Source: an uncultured Bacteroidota bacterium (GTDB lineage Bacteria; Bacteroidota; Bacteroidia; Chitinophagales; Chitinophagaceae). Taken from it: 64,000 nt of DNA. The notes beneath the pieces are model-generated. The model worked only from the letters and a program-made list of their open reading frames with translations. It made no database searches and was not told the DNA's origin. Made by a program: the position numbers and the translations under genes. The stretch covers positions 1 through 64,000 of the forward strand of contig CAIUZK010000268.1 in NCBI GenBank assembly GCA_903903635.1, in the 5' to 3' direction. Below are positions 53,356 through 56,600 of the stretch, piece by piece (the first letter of the stretch is position 1; each line of letters starts with the position of its first letter).

Positions 53356-54096
53356 ATGAGATATTTTCTGTCTGTTTTTTTTACCGCCACATTTTTTTGG
53401 GCTTCGCAAATTTGTACTGCACAAGTATCTGTTGAAATTGCCAATCAGAATAAAAAGGGCAATGCCGTATTCCTTGTGGTAACCAATGGTGGTATCGACC
53501 TTCCCGCCACCAGGGAAATTGCGCTAAAGGCCAATAAATTATATCCCAAATCTTCTGTTATTACTTTAGACAAATCTGATAAAGCCAACGCTGAACTGGT
53601 GAAAAAATATGGCTTATCTGGTTCAGCTACTCCTATGATTATGGTTATCGCTTCTAATGGAGTGGTTACTGATGGATATCCTAAAAATGAAGCAACACCG
53701 CAAAAACTGGTTGAGGGAATTCCCACAAAAAGGCAATCAGAAGCGCTGCTTGGTTTCGATCAGAAAAAACCGGTCTTTGTAGTGATGTATAAAAAGAACT
53801 TCACAGACAGAGCAACCGTAACTGATGCTTGTAAAAAAGCAGCTCTAGCCCTCAACGGGAAAGCCGTTGTAGTTGAAGTTGATTTGGATGATAAAGCCGA
53901 GGCTGAGTTCATTAAATTACTCAACCCTGATTTGCCGGTAACAAAAACGATCGTTCATGTATTTAACAGCAAAGGGCAGTTTACTTCCGATTTCTCTGCG
54001 CCTATAAAAACAGATGCGCTGGTAGCTGCGGCAAAAAAAACTCAAACTGCATGCTGTCCTCCCGGTAGCGGAAAAAGCTGCCCTCCAAAGAAATAA
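53356..54096 (+). CDS. Secreted tandem thioredoxin-fold protein with a Cys/Pro C-terminal tail
   Basis: A 246-residue exported protein with signal peptide MRYFLSVFFTATFFWASQICTAQ. Two thioredoxin-like halves are seen (about 25-120 and 128-230), each with the strand pattern of the fold (NAVFLVVTNGG...; KPVFVVMYKKNFTDR...) and a GSATPMIMVI-like cis-Pro region in the first, but neither has a CxxC active site. The tail ends TQTACCPPGSGKSCPPKK, with three Cys in a Pro-rich peptide, which could bind metal or form mixed disulfides. It is the first gene of a unit with an FtsX-type permease (29-base gap) and ATPase. I infer a periplasmic partner for that transporter; the function is not known. Confidence 0.7.
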   Translation: MRYFLSVFFTATFFWASQICTAQVSVEIANQNKKGNAVFLVVTNGGIDLPATREIALKANKLYPKSSVITLDKSDKANAELVKKYGLSGSATPMIMVIASNGVVTDGYPKNEATPQKLVEGIPTKRQSEALLGFDQKKPVFVVMYKKNFTDRATVTDACKKAALALNGKAVVVEVDLDDKAEAEFIKLLNPDLPVTKTIVHVFNSKGQFTSDFSAPIKTDALVAAAKKTQTACCPPGSGKSCPPKK

Positions 54097-54125
54097 GCAT
54101 TGATCATTCGCACAACACACAATAT

Positions 54126-55343
54126 ATGAACGTCAGAAAACTAGTCTGGCTTGAGTTCAAGTACCACAAGTCGCAGTTAATTTCAGGATTGCTGGCAATC
54201 ACCCTGGGAGTAGCTGTTATTGTGGGCATAAGGTCCATATCTGTAGTATCCGAAAAAGCAGTTGCAATAAATCTCGATAACCTCGGAGCTAATATATTGG
54301 TATTACCCCAGGGCTCAAACGTGGATAACTACTACACTGCCGACATAGATGCCCCAACTTTCCCCGAAGAGTATGTAGAGTTGATAGCAACGTCCTCACT
54401 TGCCGGTGTCGACAATATGTCTCCCAAACTTACCCGCCGAATCAGTATCAATGGTCAGAAGATAGTACTAACCGGGATACTACCTAAAAGTGAACTGGCC
54501 TCAAAACCGATATGGCAAAATTCAGGCTTGTTTGGTAAAACACTGAAAGCGTCGTGCGGGCCAAATCCTTCCAATGAATCCCTTGGCTACAAGGATGAAA
54601 AACTGCAGCGCAAATCCATTGATTCTCTTGCACCCGATGAATGCCTGGTGGGCTACTCGGCGGCCAGAAGATTAAACCTAAAAGAAAACGCCGCTATTGT
54701 TATCGAAGGCAAAACATTCAGGATTGCCAAAGTGATTACTGAAACAGGAACTATTGATGATGACCGCATTTTCGCTCATCTGCACATAGTCCAGAATTTG
54801 CTGGGGATTAAAGAACAGATCAGCGCCATAGAAATAATGGGCTGTTGCAATGCAATAACCGAAGGACTTCTTGGCAAACTCAGGAACATTTTACCCGATA
54901 CTAAAATCACCACAATTGGCCAGATAGTTTCTACCCAGGTGCAAACCAATAAAATGATGAACAAGGTGTCTTTTGTATTCCTGCTCATTATCCTTTTCGT
55001 AGGCGGCATTTCTATTGGCAACTTTATGTGGGCAAATGTAAATGAGCGGAGAAAAGAGATCGGGATGTTTCGGATGATAGGTTTTTCAAAAGGCATTATA
55101 TACCGCATGCTGCTGGCCAAAGCCTTTATTCTAGGGGTTATCGGCGGCATTATTGGGTATATTATAGGTACAGGAGCGGCAATGTGGCTGGGCCCTGAAT
55201 TCGCCAATTTGTCGGTTCGTCCATTGCCCGGATTAATACTGGTGTCCTTATTAATTTCGGTTGCCGTATCACTTATCGGGGCAGTAATACCCGCATGGGT
55301 GGCTGGTAAAATCGATCCGTTTATTAACATGCAGGAGGGCTGA
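54126..55343 (+). CDS. FtsX/MacB-type ABC transporter permease with periplasmic Cys residues
   Basis: A 405-residue permease of the MacB/LolE/FtsX type: one N-terminal span (about 16-38), a large periplasmic domain (about 40-275), and three C-terminal spans (about 278-303, 327-350 and 367-393) ending AWVAGKIDPFINMQEG. FRMIGFSKGIIYRMLLAKAF is the coupling helix region. Type VII exporters of this kind move lipoproteins, peptides or signals without passing substrates through the membrane core. The periplasmic domain carries four Cys: KASCGPN, PDECLVG and a vicinal pair MGCCNAI (240-241), which is unusual for the family. It lies between the Cys-tailed protein and its ATPase (2-base gap). Confidence 0.88.
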   Translation: MNVRKLVWLEFKYHKSQLISGLLAITLGVAVIVGIRSISVVSEKAVAINLDNLGANILVLPQGSNVDNYYTADIDAPTFPEEYVELIATSSLAGVDNMSPKLTRRISINGQKIVLTGILPKSELASKPIWQNSGLFGKTLKASCGPNPSNESLGYKDEKLQRKSIDSLAPDECLVGYSAARRLNLKENAAIVIEGKTFRIAKVITETGTIDDDRIFAHLHIVQNLLGIKEQISAIEIMGCCNAITEGLLGKLRNILPDTKITTIGQIVSTQVQTNKMMNKVSFVFLLIILFVGGISIGNFMWANVNERRKEIGMFRMIGFSKGIIYRMLLAKAFILGVIGGIIGYIIGTGAAMWLGPEFANLSVRPLPGLILVSLLISVAVSLIGAVIPAWVAGKIDPFINMQEG

Positions 55344-55345
55344 TT

Positions 55346-56011
55346 ATGAATTTAACAATTACAAACCTTTGCAAGCAATACCATCATGCCGATGGTCCCG
55401 TTGATGCACTGAAAAATGTAAACTTCTCGGTTAACAAGGGAGACTTCGTTACTATTACAGGATCTTCAGGATCGGGTAAAACCACCTTGCTGTTATGCCT
55501 GGCGGGCCTCATTAAATCAACCTCCGGAACCATACTCTTTAATGACTTCAGAATCGATTCAGCATCCGACAAACAGTTGTCCGGCTTCAGGATGAACAAT
55601 GTGGGGTTTGTAATGCAAAGTTTCGCCCTGATACCCTACCTGACAGCCATCGAAAACGTGATGTTGCCTTTAGCTGTTTCCAATATCGACAAAGCACAGA
55701 AATACAACCGCGCCCTGGAACTACTAAAACTGGTAGGTCTTGAAAACCGGAAGAACCATTTACCCAAAGAACTTTCCGCCGGACAGCAGCAGCGGGTTGC
55801 CATTGCCCGCGCCCTGATAAACAAACCCACTCTTATTTTAGCCGATGAACCTACCGGCAATCTTGACCCGGCCCTATCCATCGAAATACTCGACCTGCTA
55901 AAGAGTATAAATCAGTCGCAAGCCATCACCATACTTATGGTTACCCATAGCCCCCTGGCCTCACAATATGGCAACCATAAAATCCATCTCACAGATGGTT
56001 GCCTAAGCTAG
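55346..56011 (+). CDS. LolD/MacB-type ABC transporter ATPase
   Basis: A 221-residue nucleotide-binding subunit. Walker [10 protein letters not shown] (39-47), Q-loop [18 protein letters not shown], signature LSAGQQQR (143-150), Walker B LILADEPT (163-170) and the switch His in MVTHSP (about 200). Length and the DEPTGNLD sequence are typical of the LolD/FtsE/MacB ATPases that pair with FtsX-type permeases. It starts 2 bases after the permease stop, so the two are translationally linked. It supplies ATP-driven force from the cytosol. Confidence 0.95.
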
Positions 56012-56146
56012 GTTTTTGCATGATTGTTGTCATTTGCAGTAAAAAATTGCAGGGGACTGCAAAAATTGTCTGAATCAGAATCTTCAGAATTATTGAATTT
56101 TCAGAATTGGATGGTTTTTGCATGGTTGTAGTCTTTTGCAGTAAAA

Positions 56147-56198
56147 ATTGCAGGAGTTTATATTGATAATCAATTGTTTAGTAGTTGAAAATTGCAGG
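56147..56198. repeat. 52-bp repeat with TTGATAATCAA core, copy 1
   Basis: attgcaggagtttatattga followed by taatcaattgtttagtagtt and gaaaattgcagg. Matches 56321-56372 with a single mismatch. The core TATTGATAATCAAnnGTTTAG is shared with the 99-bp elements. Confidence 0.75.
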
Positions 56199-56320
56199 GG
56201 ACTGCAAAATTGTCTGAATCGCAGATTAAATGCTCCTTCGCTGAAAAAGCTATGGCGCACGAAGAGGGATTATAGGATTTCGCTGATTGTGTTGCATTTC
56301 CAGAATGGTTTTTCAGAATA

Positions 56321-56372
56321 ATTGCAGGAGTTTGTATTGATAATCAATTGTTTAGTAGTTGAAAATTGCAGG
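56321..56372. repeat. 52-bp repeat with TTGATAATCAA core, copy 2
   Basis: Second copy, 174 bases to the right of the first and in the same direction. Flanks differ after gaaaattgcagg. Confidence 0.75.
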
Positions 56373-56501
56373 TTTCTGTAATTTTTTTGCTGTTTTTTGC
56401 AGAAATTAGAATCACTAAACAATTAACCACAAGGGCAACTAAGAAGTGAACAAAGGTCACAATGGACCTGCTATGATTTTTTTGCTTGTTCTTTTAATAG
56501 A

Positions 56502-56600
56502 ATTGCACACTGCGCAAAAAATATTTTGTTGCGCATTTTTTTATTGATAATCAAGCGTTTAGCTTGAGATAATTGCGCATTTTGGTTGTAAGTGTGCAAT
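56502..56600. repeat. 99-bp MITE-like element with 10-bp terminal inverted repeats, copy 2
   Basis: ATTGCACACT...AGTGTGCAAT, same length and orientation as the copy at 5868-5966, with the same interior TTGCGCA pair and TTATTGATAATCAAGCGTTTAG. It lies about 310 bases from the 3' end of the RhuM gene. Confidence 0.8.

Follow-up and report, generated by a model that had tools for sequence, protein, structure and literature searches.

What work is done in the cell envelope by an FtsX-type permease that bears its own periplasmic cysteines and is encoded next to a secreted protein ending in more of them? The question is posed by three genes in the 64,000-nucleotide stretch of Chitinophagaceae DNA analysed here (the window). 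The genes form three + strand reading frames, 53356-54096 (246 aa), 54126-55343 (405 aa) and 55346-56011 (221 aa), separated by 29 and 2 bases. A sequence-only reading of the same DNA had noted these frames, their spacing and the cysteines, and re-reading of the ORFs found all of this as stated. We find that exoprotein, FtsX-type permease and LolD-type ATPase constitute a conserved unit across several bacterial phyla. Because this Cys-tailed unit lies mostly inside arsenic-resistance operons, it probably represents a novel means by which arsenic, or soft metals like it, are dealt with in the cell envelope.

The three proteins and their cysteines

The first gene (53356..54096, + strand) encodes a 246-residue secreted protein of tandem thioredoxin fold without CxxC, an assignment drawn from the ORF, Pfam, an AlphaFold2 model and the adjacency of the gene at other loci. 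The N-terminus resembles a signal peptide and the C-terminal tail reads TACCPPGSGKSCPPKK. The Pfam Thioredoxin_6 match is barely above cut-off and NCBIfam 20.0 gave no match. The AlphaFold2 model, built with 49 homologues, consists of two tandem thioredoxin folds (mean pLDDT 91.5) followed from about residue 230 by the tail, which is of low confidence. The nearest solved folds are PDI-like tandem domains, including the non-catalytic ERp27 and calsequestrin, with TM-scores that are all low. The tail (54049..54093, + strand) contains Cys233 (54052-54054), Cys234 (54055-54057) and Cys242 (54079-54081). Among aligned homologues Cys233 is present in 61/61, Cys242 in 60/61, Cys159 in 59/62 and Cys234 in 45/61; exoproteins that lack the second adjacent tail cysteine mostly have CAPGAC or CGPGC. 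Only six columns of the alignment are invariant and two of these are tail cysteines; at a mean column identity of 34%, such conservation is more than would be expected by chance. Pooling of 85 exoproteins gave exactly three cysteines in the last 28 residues of 76 proteins and four in 7, and no CxxC in the body of any (0/85). The two proteins without a Cys tail are a frameshifted copy that has the tail in another frame (L048) and one that stops early beside a truncated permease (L068).

The second gene (54126..55343, + strand) encodes a 405-residue FtsX/MacB-type permease whose TM1 and TM2 are separated by a large periplasmic domain, as indicated by Pfam, a structural model and Foldseek. Pfam matches are to FtsX (PF02687) and MacB_PCD (PF12704), and no NCBIfam 20.0 model scores over its cut-off. 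The model has the helix pattern typical of the family, at a modest pLDDT of 74 and with low confidence in the Cys loops; its best Foldseek matches are LolCDE and MacB (E about 1e-15). An FtsX domain, four TM helices, a TM1-TM2 periplasmic domain and the MacB/LolE fold place the protein in the MacB/FtsX (type VII) ABC superfamily. Cysteines 144, 173, 240 and 241 all fall in the region that links the first two helical membrane segments in the model. Cys144 (54555..54557, + strand), situated in an insertion that forms a low-confidence loop of the model, is conserved in 65/65 aligned permeases; the insertion is missing from FetB/FetC and from CxxC-type relatives. Cys173 (54642..54644, + strand) is conserved in 63/66, the losses being in the early-branching L057, L066 and L073. 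The GCC motif, Gly239-Cys240-Cys241 (54840..54848, + strand), follows a strand of the porter domain and is found in 66/66, with both Cys240 and Cys241 at 66/66.

The third gene (55346..56011, + strand) encodes a LolD/FtsE-like ABC ATPase of 221 residues, so assigned by Pfam and NCBIfam. Its Walker A (GSSGSGKT), Walker B and signature (LSAGQ) motifs are intact. Although LolD-like by NCBIfam, the protein scores below the LolD equivalog cut-off (219.9 vs 307.75 bits), and none of the best 25 NCBIfam 20.0 matches listed is over cut-off. The unit is followed, at 56011-56580, by A+T-rich DNA in which several imperfect repeats occur, their units being 35-65 bp long and containing ATTGCAGG.

Conservation of the unit

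A scan of genome contigs yielded 68 permease orthologues. It used six patterns, including the peptide IEIMGCCN, and this GCC pattern was the only possible route to 45 of the 65 distinct full-length permeases. For this reason permease profile searches were added, covering whole genomes of 295 members of one Bacteroidota order and 246 Planctomycetota. In this GCC-independent search the vicinal cysteine pair was present in all clade members read, to about E = 1e-109, mostly as GCC and as ACC in L178, L182, L184 and L185. Where the locus was long enough, the members so found have an adjacent exoprotein, nearly always Cys-tailed. Permeases of the sister groups outside the clade have CxxC, CVC or CMC in the same loop. 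The cysteines singled out by the sequence-only reading are thus conserved, the tail with three or four cysteines in 83 of 85 exoproteins and the vicinal pair throughout the clade.

An exoprotein homologue adjoins the permease at 64 of the 68 loci, and three of the other four begin too near the permease; the linkage of the exoprotein gene to the transporter in other genomes, as claimed earlier, accordingly holds at 64 of the 65 orthologous loci that extend far enough upstream. The ATPase lies 3' of the permease at 67/68 loci, the sole missing one being at a contig end. Nearly all loci have one permease gene per unit, L060 having a second permease/ATPase pair. At the 38 loci encoding all four proteins, pairwise distances correlate at 0.82 (exoprotein-permease), 0.84 (exoprotein-ATPase) and 0.89 (permease-ATPase), compared with 0.33-0.39 for each of the three with ACR3 of the same locus. 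Distances within the unit being correlated and those to ACR3 poorly so, we conclude that the exoprotein is co-inherited with the transporter and that the unit has repeatedly joined different ars operons. The special link once suspected between a Cys-tailed protein and a Cys-bearing permease is borne out by the near-universal adjacency, the conserved cysteines and these correlations (r = 0.82-0.89 vs 0.33-0.39 for ACR3).

Ars operons that contain the unit occur repeatedly in Bacteroidota, Myxococcota, Fidelibacterota and Planctomycetota; Ignavibacteriota carry the unit as well. One locus (L034 and L035) was found in bins named Arenicella (Pseudomonadota) and Saprospiraceae; this is probably cross-binning, so an occurrence in Pseudomonadota should not be counted. 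No plasmid-borne copies of the unit itself were found, only a distant relative in Pelobacter.

Association with arsenic resistance genes

Representatives of neighbouring genes were checked with NCBIfam and Pfam, and cluster counts were extended by BLAST similarity. Across the 68 loci, the neighbours include ArsR (50 loci), ACR3 (42), ArsC (31), ArsM (19), ArsA (5) and ArsD (3). At least one of these ars genes (arsR, acr3, arsC, arsM, arsA, arsD) is nearby at 59 of the 68 loci, and at 38 of the 43 with more than 3 kb of flank on both sides; an ars gene lies directly beside the unit at 53 of 68. This linkage at the locus level is far above a rough chance estimate. Representatives of ACR3, ArsM, ArsD, HTH_metalloreg (ArsR/SmtB subfamily), ArsE-type thioredoxin and ArsP_1 score above curated cut-offs; those of ArsC and ArsA match best to the arsenate reductase and arsenical pump ATPase models, at scores below cut-off, ArsA having been scanned in part. 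ArsP_1 permeases, ArsE-type thioredoxins, CcdA-like proteins and rhodanese-like proteins are also found in the ars clusters that contain the unit. Another recurrent element of such clusters (c11 and c14, for example at L045 and L059) is a secreted protein with an N-terminal CCTSGNPF together with a small CxxC lipoprotein, a pair for which Pfam gave no match.

Nine loci are not linked to ars genes. Two belong to the window's genus (G008 and G031) and have ACR3 elsewhere in the genome. In the seven other genomes with an ars-free locus, ACR3 is over cut-off in five, a weaker match in one and a fragment only in one. Within the window's genus ACR3 is present in 7/7 carriers of the unit vs 3/28 non-carriers (hypergeometric p = 1.8e-5, relatedness ignored).

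The copy in the window

The window's own unit lies outside the canonical arsR-arsC-arsM-acr3-arsC operon of its genome, which is on a separate contig (C89). The sequence CGTAATATTGCAAT occurs immediately upstream of arsR in 6/6 genomes of the genus that were read (L101 at 10751, L102 at 9035, L104 at 8045, L105 at 8036, L106 at 6740 and L107 at 4766). Because of its position and conservation we take it as a putative ArsR operator, which it likely is. It is absent upstream of the window unit, and control of the unit by the genome's ArsR was rejected on this ground. The window copy has therefore come apart from the ars operon and, with that operon on another contig and no CGTAATATTGCAAT upstream, may be differently regulated. 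This separation is the main ground for caution about this copy. We also considered a recent insertion between mraZ and the thiolase gene; among five relatives there is no clean empty site, as synteny varies.

Discussion

A proposed envelope step in arsenic handling

On balance we lean towards the view that the unit is an extracytoplasmic soft-metalloid module, working mainly with ars operons, whose tail binds As(III) and passes it to the permease. The exoprotein is proposed to be an extracytoplasmic soft-metalloid carrier and would not act as a redox thioredoxin. Its flexible tail, usually with exactly three cysteines, would bind arsenic in its trivalent state, either as such or methylated or thiolated. 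Three closely spaced conserved cysteines (three in 76/85 tails, four in 7/85) are a sequence feature of As(III) three-thiolate sites. The motif CCSTGVC of ArsD is an As(III) site, and ArsD proteins from the unit's own ars operons carry this motif, which is comparable to the exoprotein tail. The tail cysteines are odd in number and closely spaced, in a manner like that of ArsD, the folds lack CxxC and the context is ars; for these reasons we favour metalloid binding over disulfide exchange. MacB-fold permeases are expected to act on periplasmic or outer-leaflet substrates (reviewed in PMC5985334). Together with the tail and the ars features, this leads us to propose an ATP-driven hand-off from the tail to the Cys loop of the permease: the loaded exoprotein would deliver to the periplasmic domain, where the vicinal pair and Cys144 may form a docking or exchange site, and the LolD-type ATPase would power the transfer by mechanotransmission. 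The most likely role would be to clear arsenic delivered to the periplasm by ACR3 or ArsP, or attached to thiols of the envelope. That the tail binds As(III), that it docks on the permease and that the unit exports, as opposed to importing or sensing, are all steps that we infer. Soluble, neutral As(OH)3 is expected to exit the periplasm via porins, which makes it less than obvious why ATP would have to drive a step here; no constant outer-membrane partner of the unit was found among its neighbours.

The evolutionary record bears on this proposal in both directions. In a quick tree with long branches, whose deep joins are unsure, the clade with Cys-tailed partners has an SH-aLRT of 99 and is followed outward by the CVC/CMC group, the CxxC type and E. 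coli FetB/FetC. L176 and L177, the earliest-branching members of one planctomycete subclade, are in ars clusters, which counts for an arsenic module. The rest of that subclade is not ars-linked, and many of the planctomycete copies L178-L187 have no ars genes nearby, which counts against it, as does the position of the window unit outside the ars operon with no CGTAATATTGCAAT upstream.

Thiols, other metals or other cargo

The best surviving alternative, although we regard it as unlikely, is that the unit acts as a source or relay of reducing or oxidising power across the envelope, with the tail and permease cysteines forming disulfides; within ars operons it would then serve arsenate or thiol homeostasis. 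The recurrence of CcdA-like proteins, CxxC thioredoxins, an ArsE-type thioredoxin and rhodanese-like proteins in the same clusters speaks for such a role, and there is a precedent in the Fet system (FetBCD with FetEF), for which FetBCD has been proposed as the source of reducing power (PMC10783030). However, no exoprotein homologue has CxxC in its body (0/85), and a disulfide relay would not usually be built on an odd number of cysteines, whereas most tails have three. The exoprotein, with its tandem thioredoxin folds and Cys tail, is also unlike FetE and FetF, each of which is a CxxC oxidoreductase of one domain (PMC10783030). In general layout Fet (FetBCD plus FetEF, from the fetMP-fetABCDEF iron cluster of Campylobacter and E. 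coli) is alike, and of the systems studied so far it comes closest: FtsX-type permeases, a LolD-type ATPase and extracytoplasmic thioredoxin-fold proteins are likewise encoded at a metal locus (PMC10783030). The E. coli plasmid homologues differ in having two permeases, of about 20% identity and lacking GCC, as against the single permease gene found here. The Fet context is iron, with FTR1, P19 and DUF2318, and that of our unit arsenic; no FTR1, P19 or DUF2318 genes were recognised among its conserved neighbour clusters, which contain ars genes instead.

A general heavy-metal module, handling a soft metal ion such as copper, zinc or mercury and using ars operons as one of several hosts, seems to us distinctly doubtful. 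It draws on a distant relative on plasmid pPRO1 of Pelobacter propionicus, with a CSGC permease and an HMA protein ending in CCGGKNGGCGG, located by metal P-type ATPase and CusA/CzcA genes, and on planctomycete copies that lie near a CzcA-like gene or small Cys/His-rich ORFs or have His-containing tails such as CCDDENCKHH. By eye, L182 adjoins the CzcA-like gene, and the corresponding place in L184 is taken by a large ORF. Small Cys/His-rich ORFs, possibly metal-binding proteins, are seen in L178 (8912-9394), L179 (4629-5024), L180 (5325-5750) and L186 (9256-9918). Yet the recurrent identified resistance genes in the window's clade are ars and not cop, mer or czc, and most carriers with no ars genes close by have ACR3 at another place in the genome (over cut-off in 5/7 tested). 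Copper, mercury or zinc as a first guess thus finds no support in the neighbours within this clade. The sequence-only reading had offered a metal, thiol or copper role; its metal/thiol part stands, and arsenic now takes first place as the likely substrate, ahead of copper, mercury and zinc, although the surroundings of some planctomycete relatives are heavy-metal-like or show no metal link that could be recognised.

It is very improbable that the unit exports lipoproteins, peptides or drugs in the manner of LolCDE or MacB and accompanies resistance genes simply as a fellow traveller. The fold matches and the LolD-like ATPase are what one would expect of such an exporter, and with MacAB-TolC and LolCDE the unit shares the fold and likely the mechanism, mechanotransmission being the likely mode of action of MacB/LolCDE-type machines (reviewed in PMC5985334). 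But every curated LolCE, LolD and MacB cut-off is missed by a wide margin (lolCE, 26.9 vs 362.45 bits; LolD, 219.9 vs 307.75; MacB, 34.9 vs 966), and the invariant cysteines, the obligate Cys-tailed partner and the ars linkage are left unexplained. LolCDE has a LolC/LolE pair and the unit a single permease gene; its ATPase is a separate gene, in contrast to the fused NBD-permease of MacB; the unit is without MacA or TolC, no MacA adaptor having been recognised among the conserved neighbour clusters; and invariant permease cysteines are not a defining feature of MacAB-TolC or LolCDE. With ars neighbours added to the missed cut-offs, the early suggestion of a metal/thiol role distinct from Lol and MacAB is supported. 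We consider it just as improbable as a Lol- or MacB-like exporter that the unit hitch-hikes on ars islands with no role in arsenic handling: the window, G008 and G031 copies are unlinked to ars genes, and exoprotein and permease distances correlate poorly with those of ACR3, but the linkage recurs in several phyla and many gene orders, usually as a direct same-strand neighbour of an ars gene, and unlinked carriers within the genus still all have ACR3.

A possible wider class of modules

The unit has relatives of similar design. FtsX permeases linked to DUF2318 or HMA genes (Pelobacter propionicus pPRO1 and Bacteroidota L084-L088) are 25-30% identical to those studied here and have a cysteine pair at the homologous loop, and the partner at the Pelobacter locus likewise ends in a CC...C tail. 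They differ in that the partner is an HMA or DUF2318 protein, the Cys144 insertion is missing and they form a separate clade. The Pelobacter locus (L082, 8883-11692) encodes an HMA-domain protein with tail CCGGKNGGCGG, a DUF2318 protein, a CSGC FtsX permease and an ATPase; an M23 peptidase gene follows the ATPase in what looks like a metal ABC cluster, and metal P-type ATPase and CusA/CzcA genes adjoin it. In L145 (55-843), L146 (2883-3668) and L147 (2880-3668), a lipoprotein with an invariant C-terminal CSC (TA[DE]CSCLIKD) precedes the CVC-type permease, and the two may be a matched Cys pair; homology of this lipoprotein to the exoprotein was not supported (hhalign probability 6%). A Massilia putida plasmid from wolfram-mine tailing (L111, 4756-9356) carries an ArsR/SmtB regulator, three secreted proteins, an FtsX permease, an ATPase and a DsbD N-terminal-domain protein; this too is a metal-type cluster that includes an FtsX unit, but the loop lacks a Cys pair.

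One could tentatively imagine, as a possibility, a class of type VII ABC modules that handle metals, with the Cys cluster of an exoprotein loading a Cys loop of the permease and the two being matched in each lineage. The proposed pairs are a CC...C thioredoxin-fold tail with GCC (arsenic), a CC...C HMA tail with CSGC (heavy metals) and a CSC lipoprotein with CVC. If so, mechanotransmission ABC machines would have branched out into systems that hand over metals and metalloids in the envelope, and the arsenic branch would be an arm of ars operons that has gone undescribed.

Arsenic resistance is among the best-studied metalloid systems, yet a recurrent ABC unit appears to have gone undescribed in the literature searched. 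The term "ABC transporter" does not occur in a 2018 survey of ars genes (PMC6205960), and no description of an ABC, FtsX or MacB unit in ars operons was found in the literature searched, most subscription journals lying outside it. The unit appears, within those bounds, to be an undescribed MacB/FtsX-type ABC system associated with ars operons. It shares operons with the ArsDAB, ACR3 and ArsP efflux systems, and CCSTGVC of ArsD resembles its three-Cys tail; however, ArsD and ArsA work in the cytosol and supply ArsB or ACR3, whereas the unit pairs a secreted protein, the proposed carrier, with an ABC permease. The findings also bear on Fet, where the role of FetBCD is still called unclear: the families described here make the choice between metals, thiols and electrons testable. 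If the arsenic model is true, it would add an envelope step to arsenic detoxification and a metalloid to the substrates of MacB/FtsX machines.
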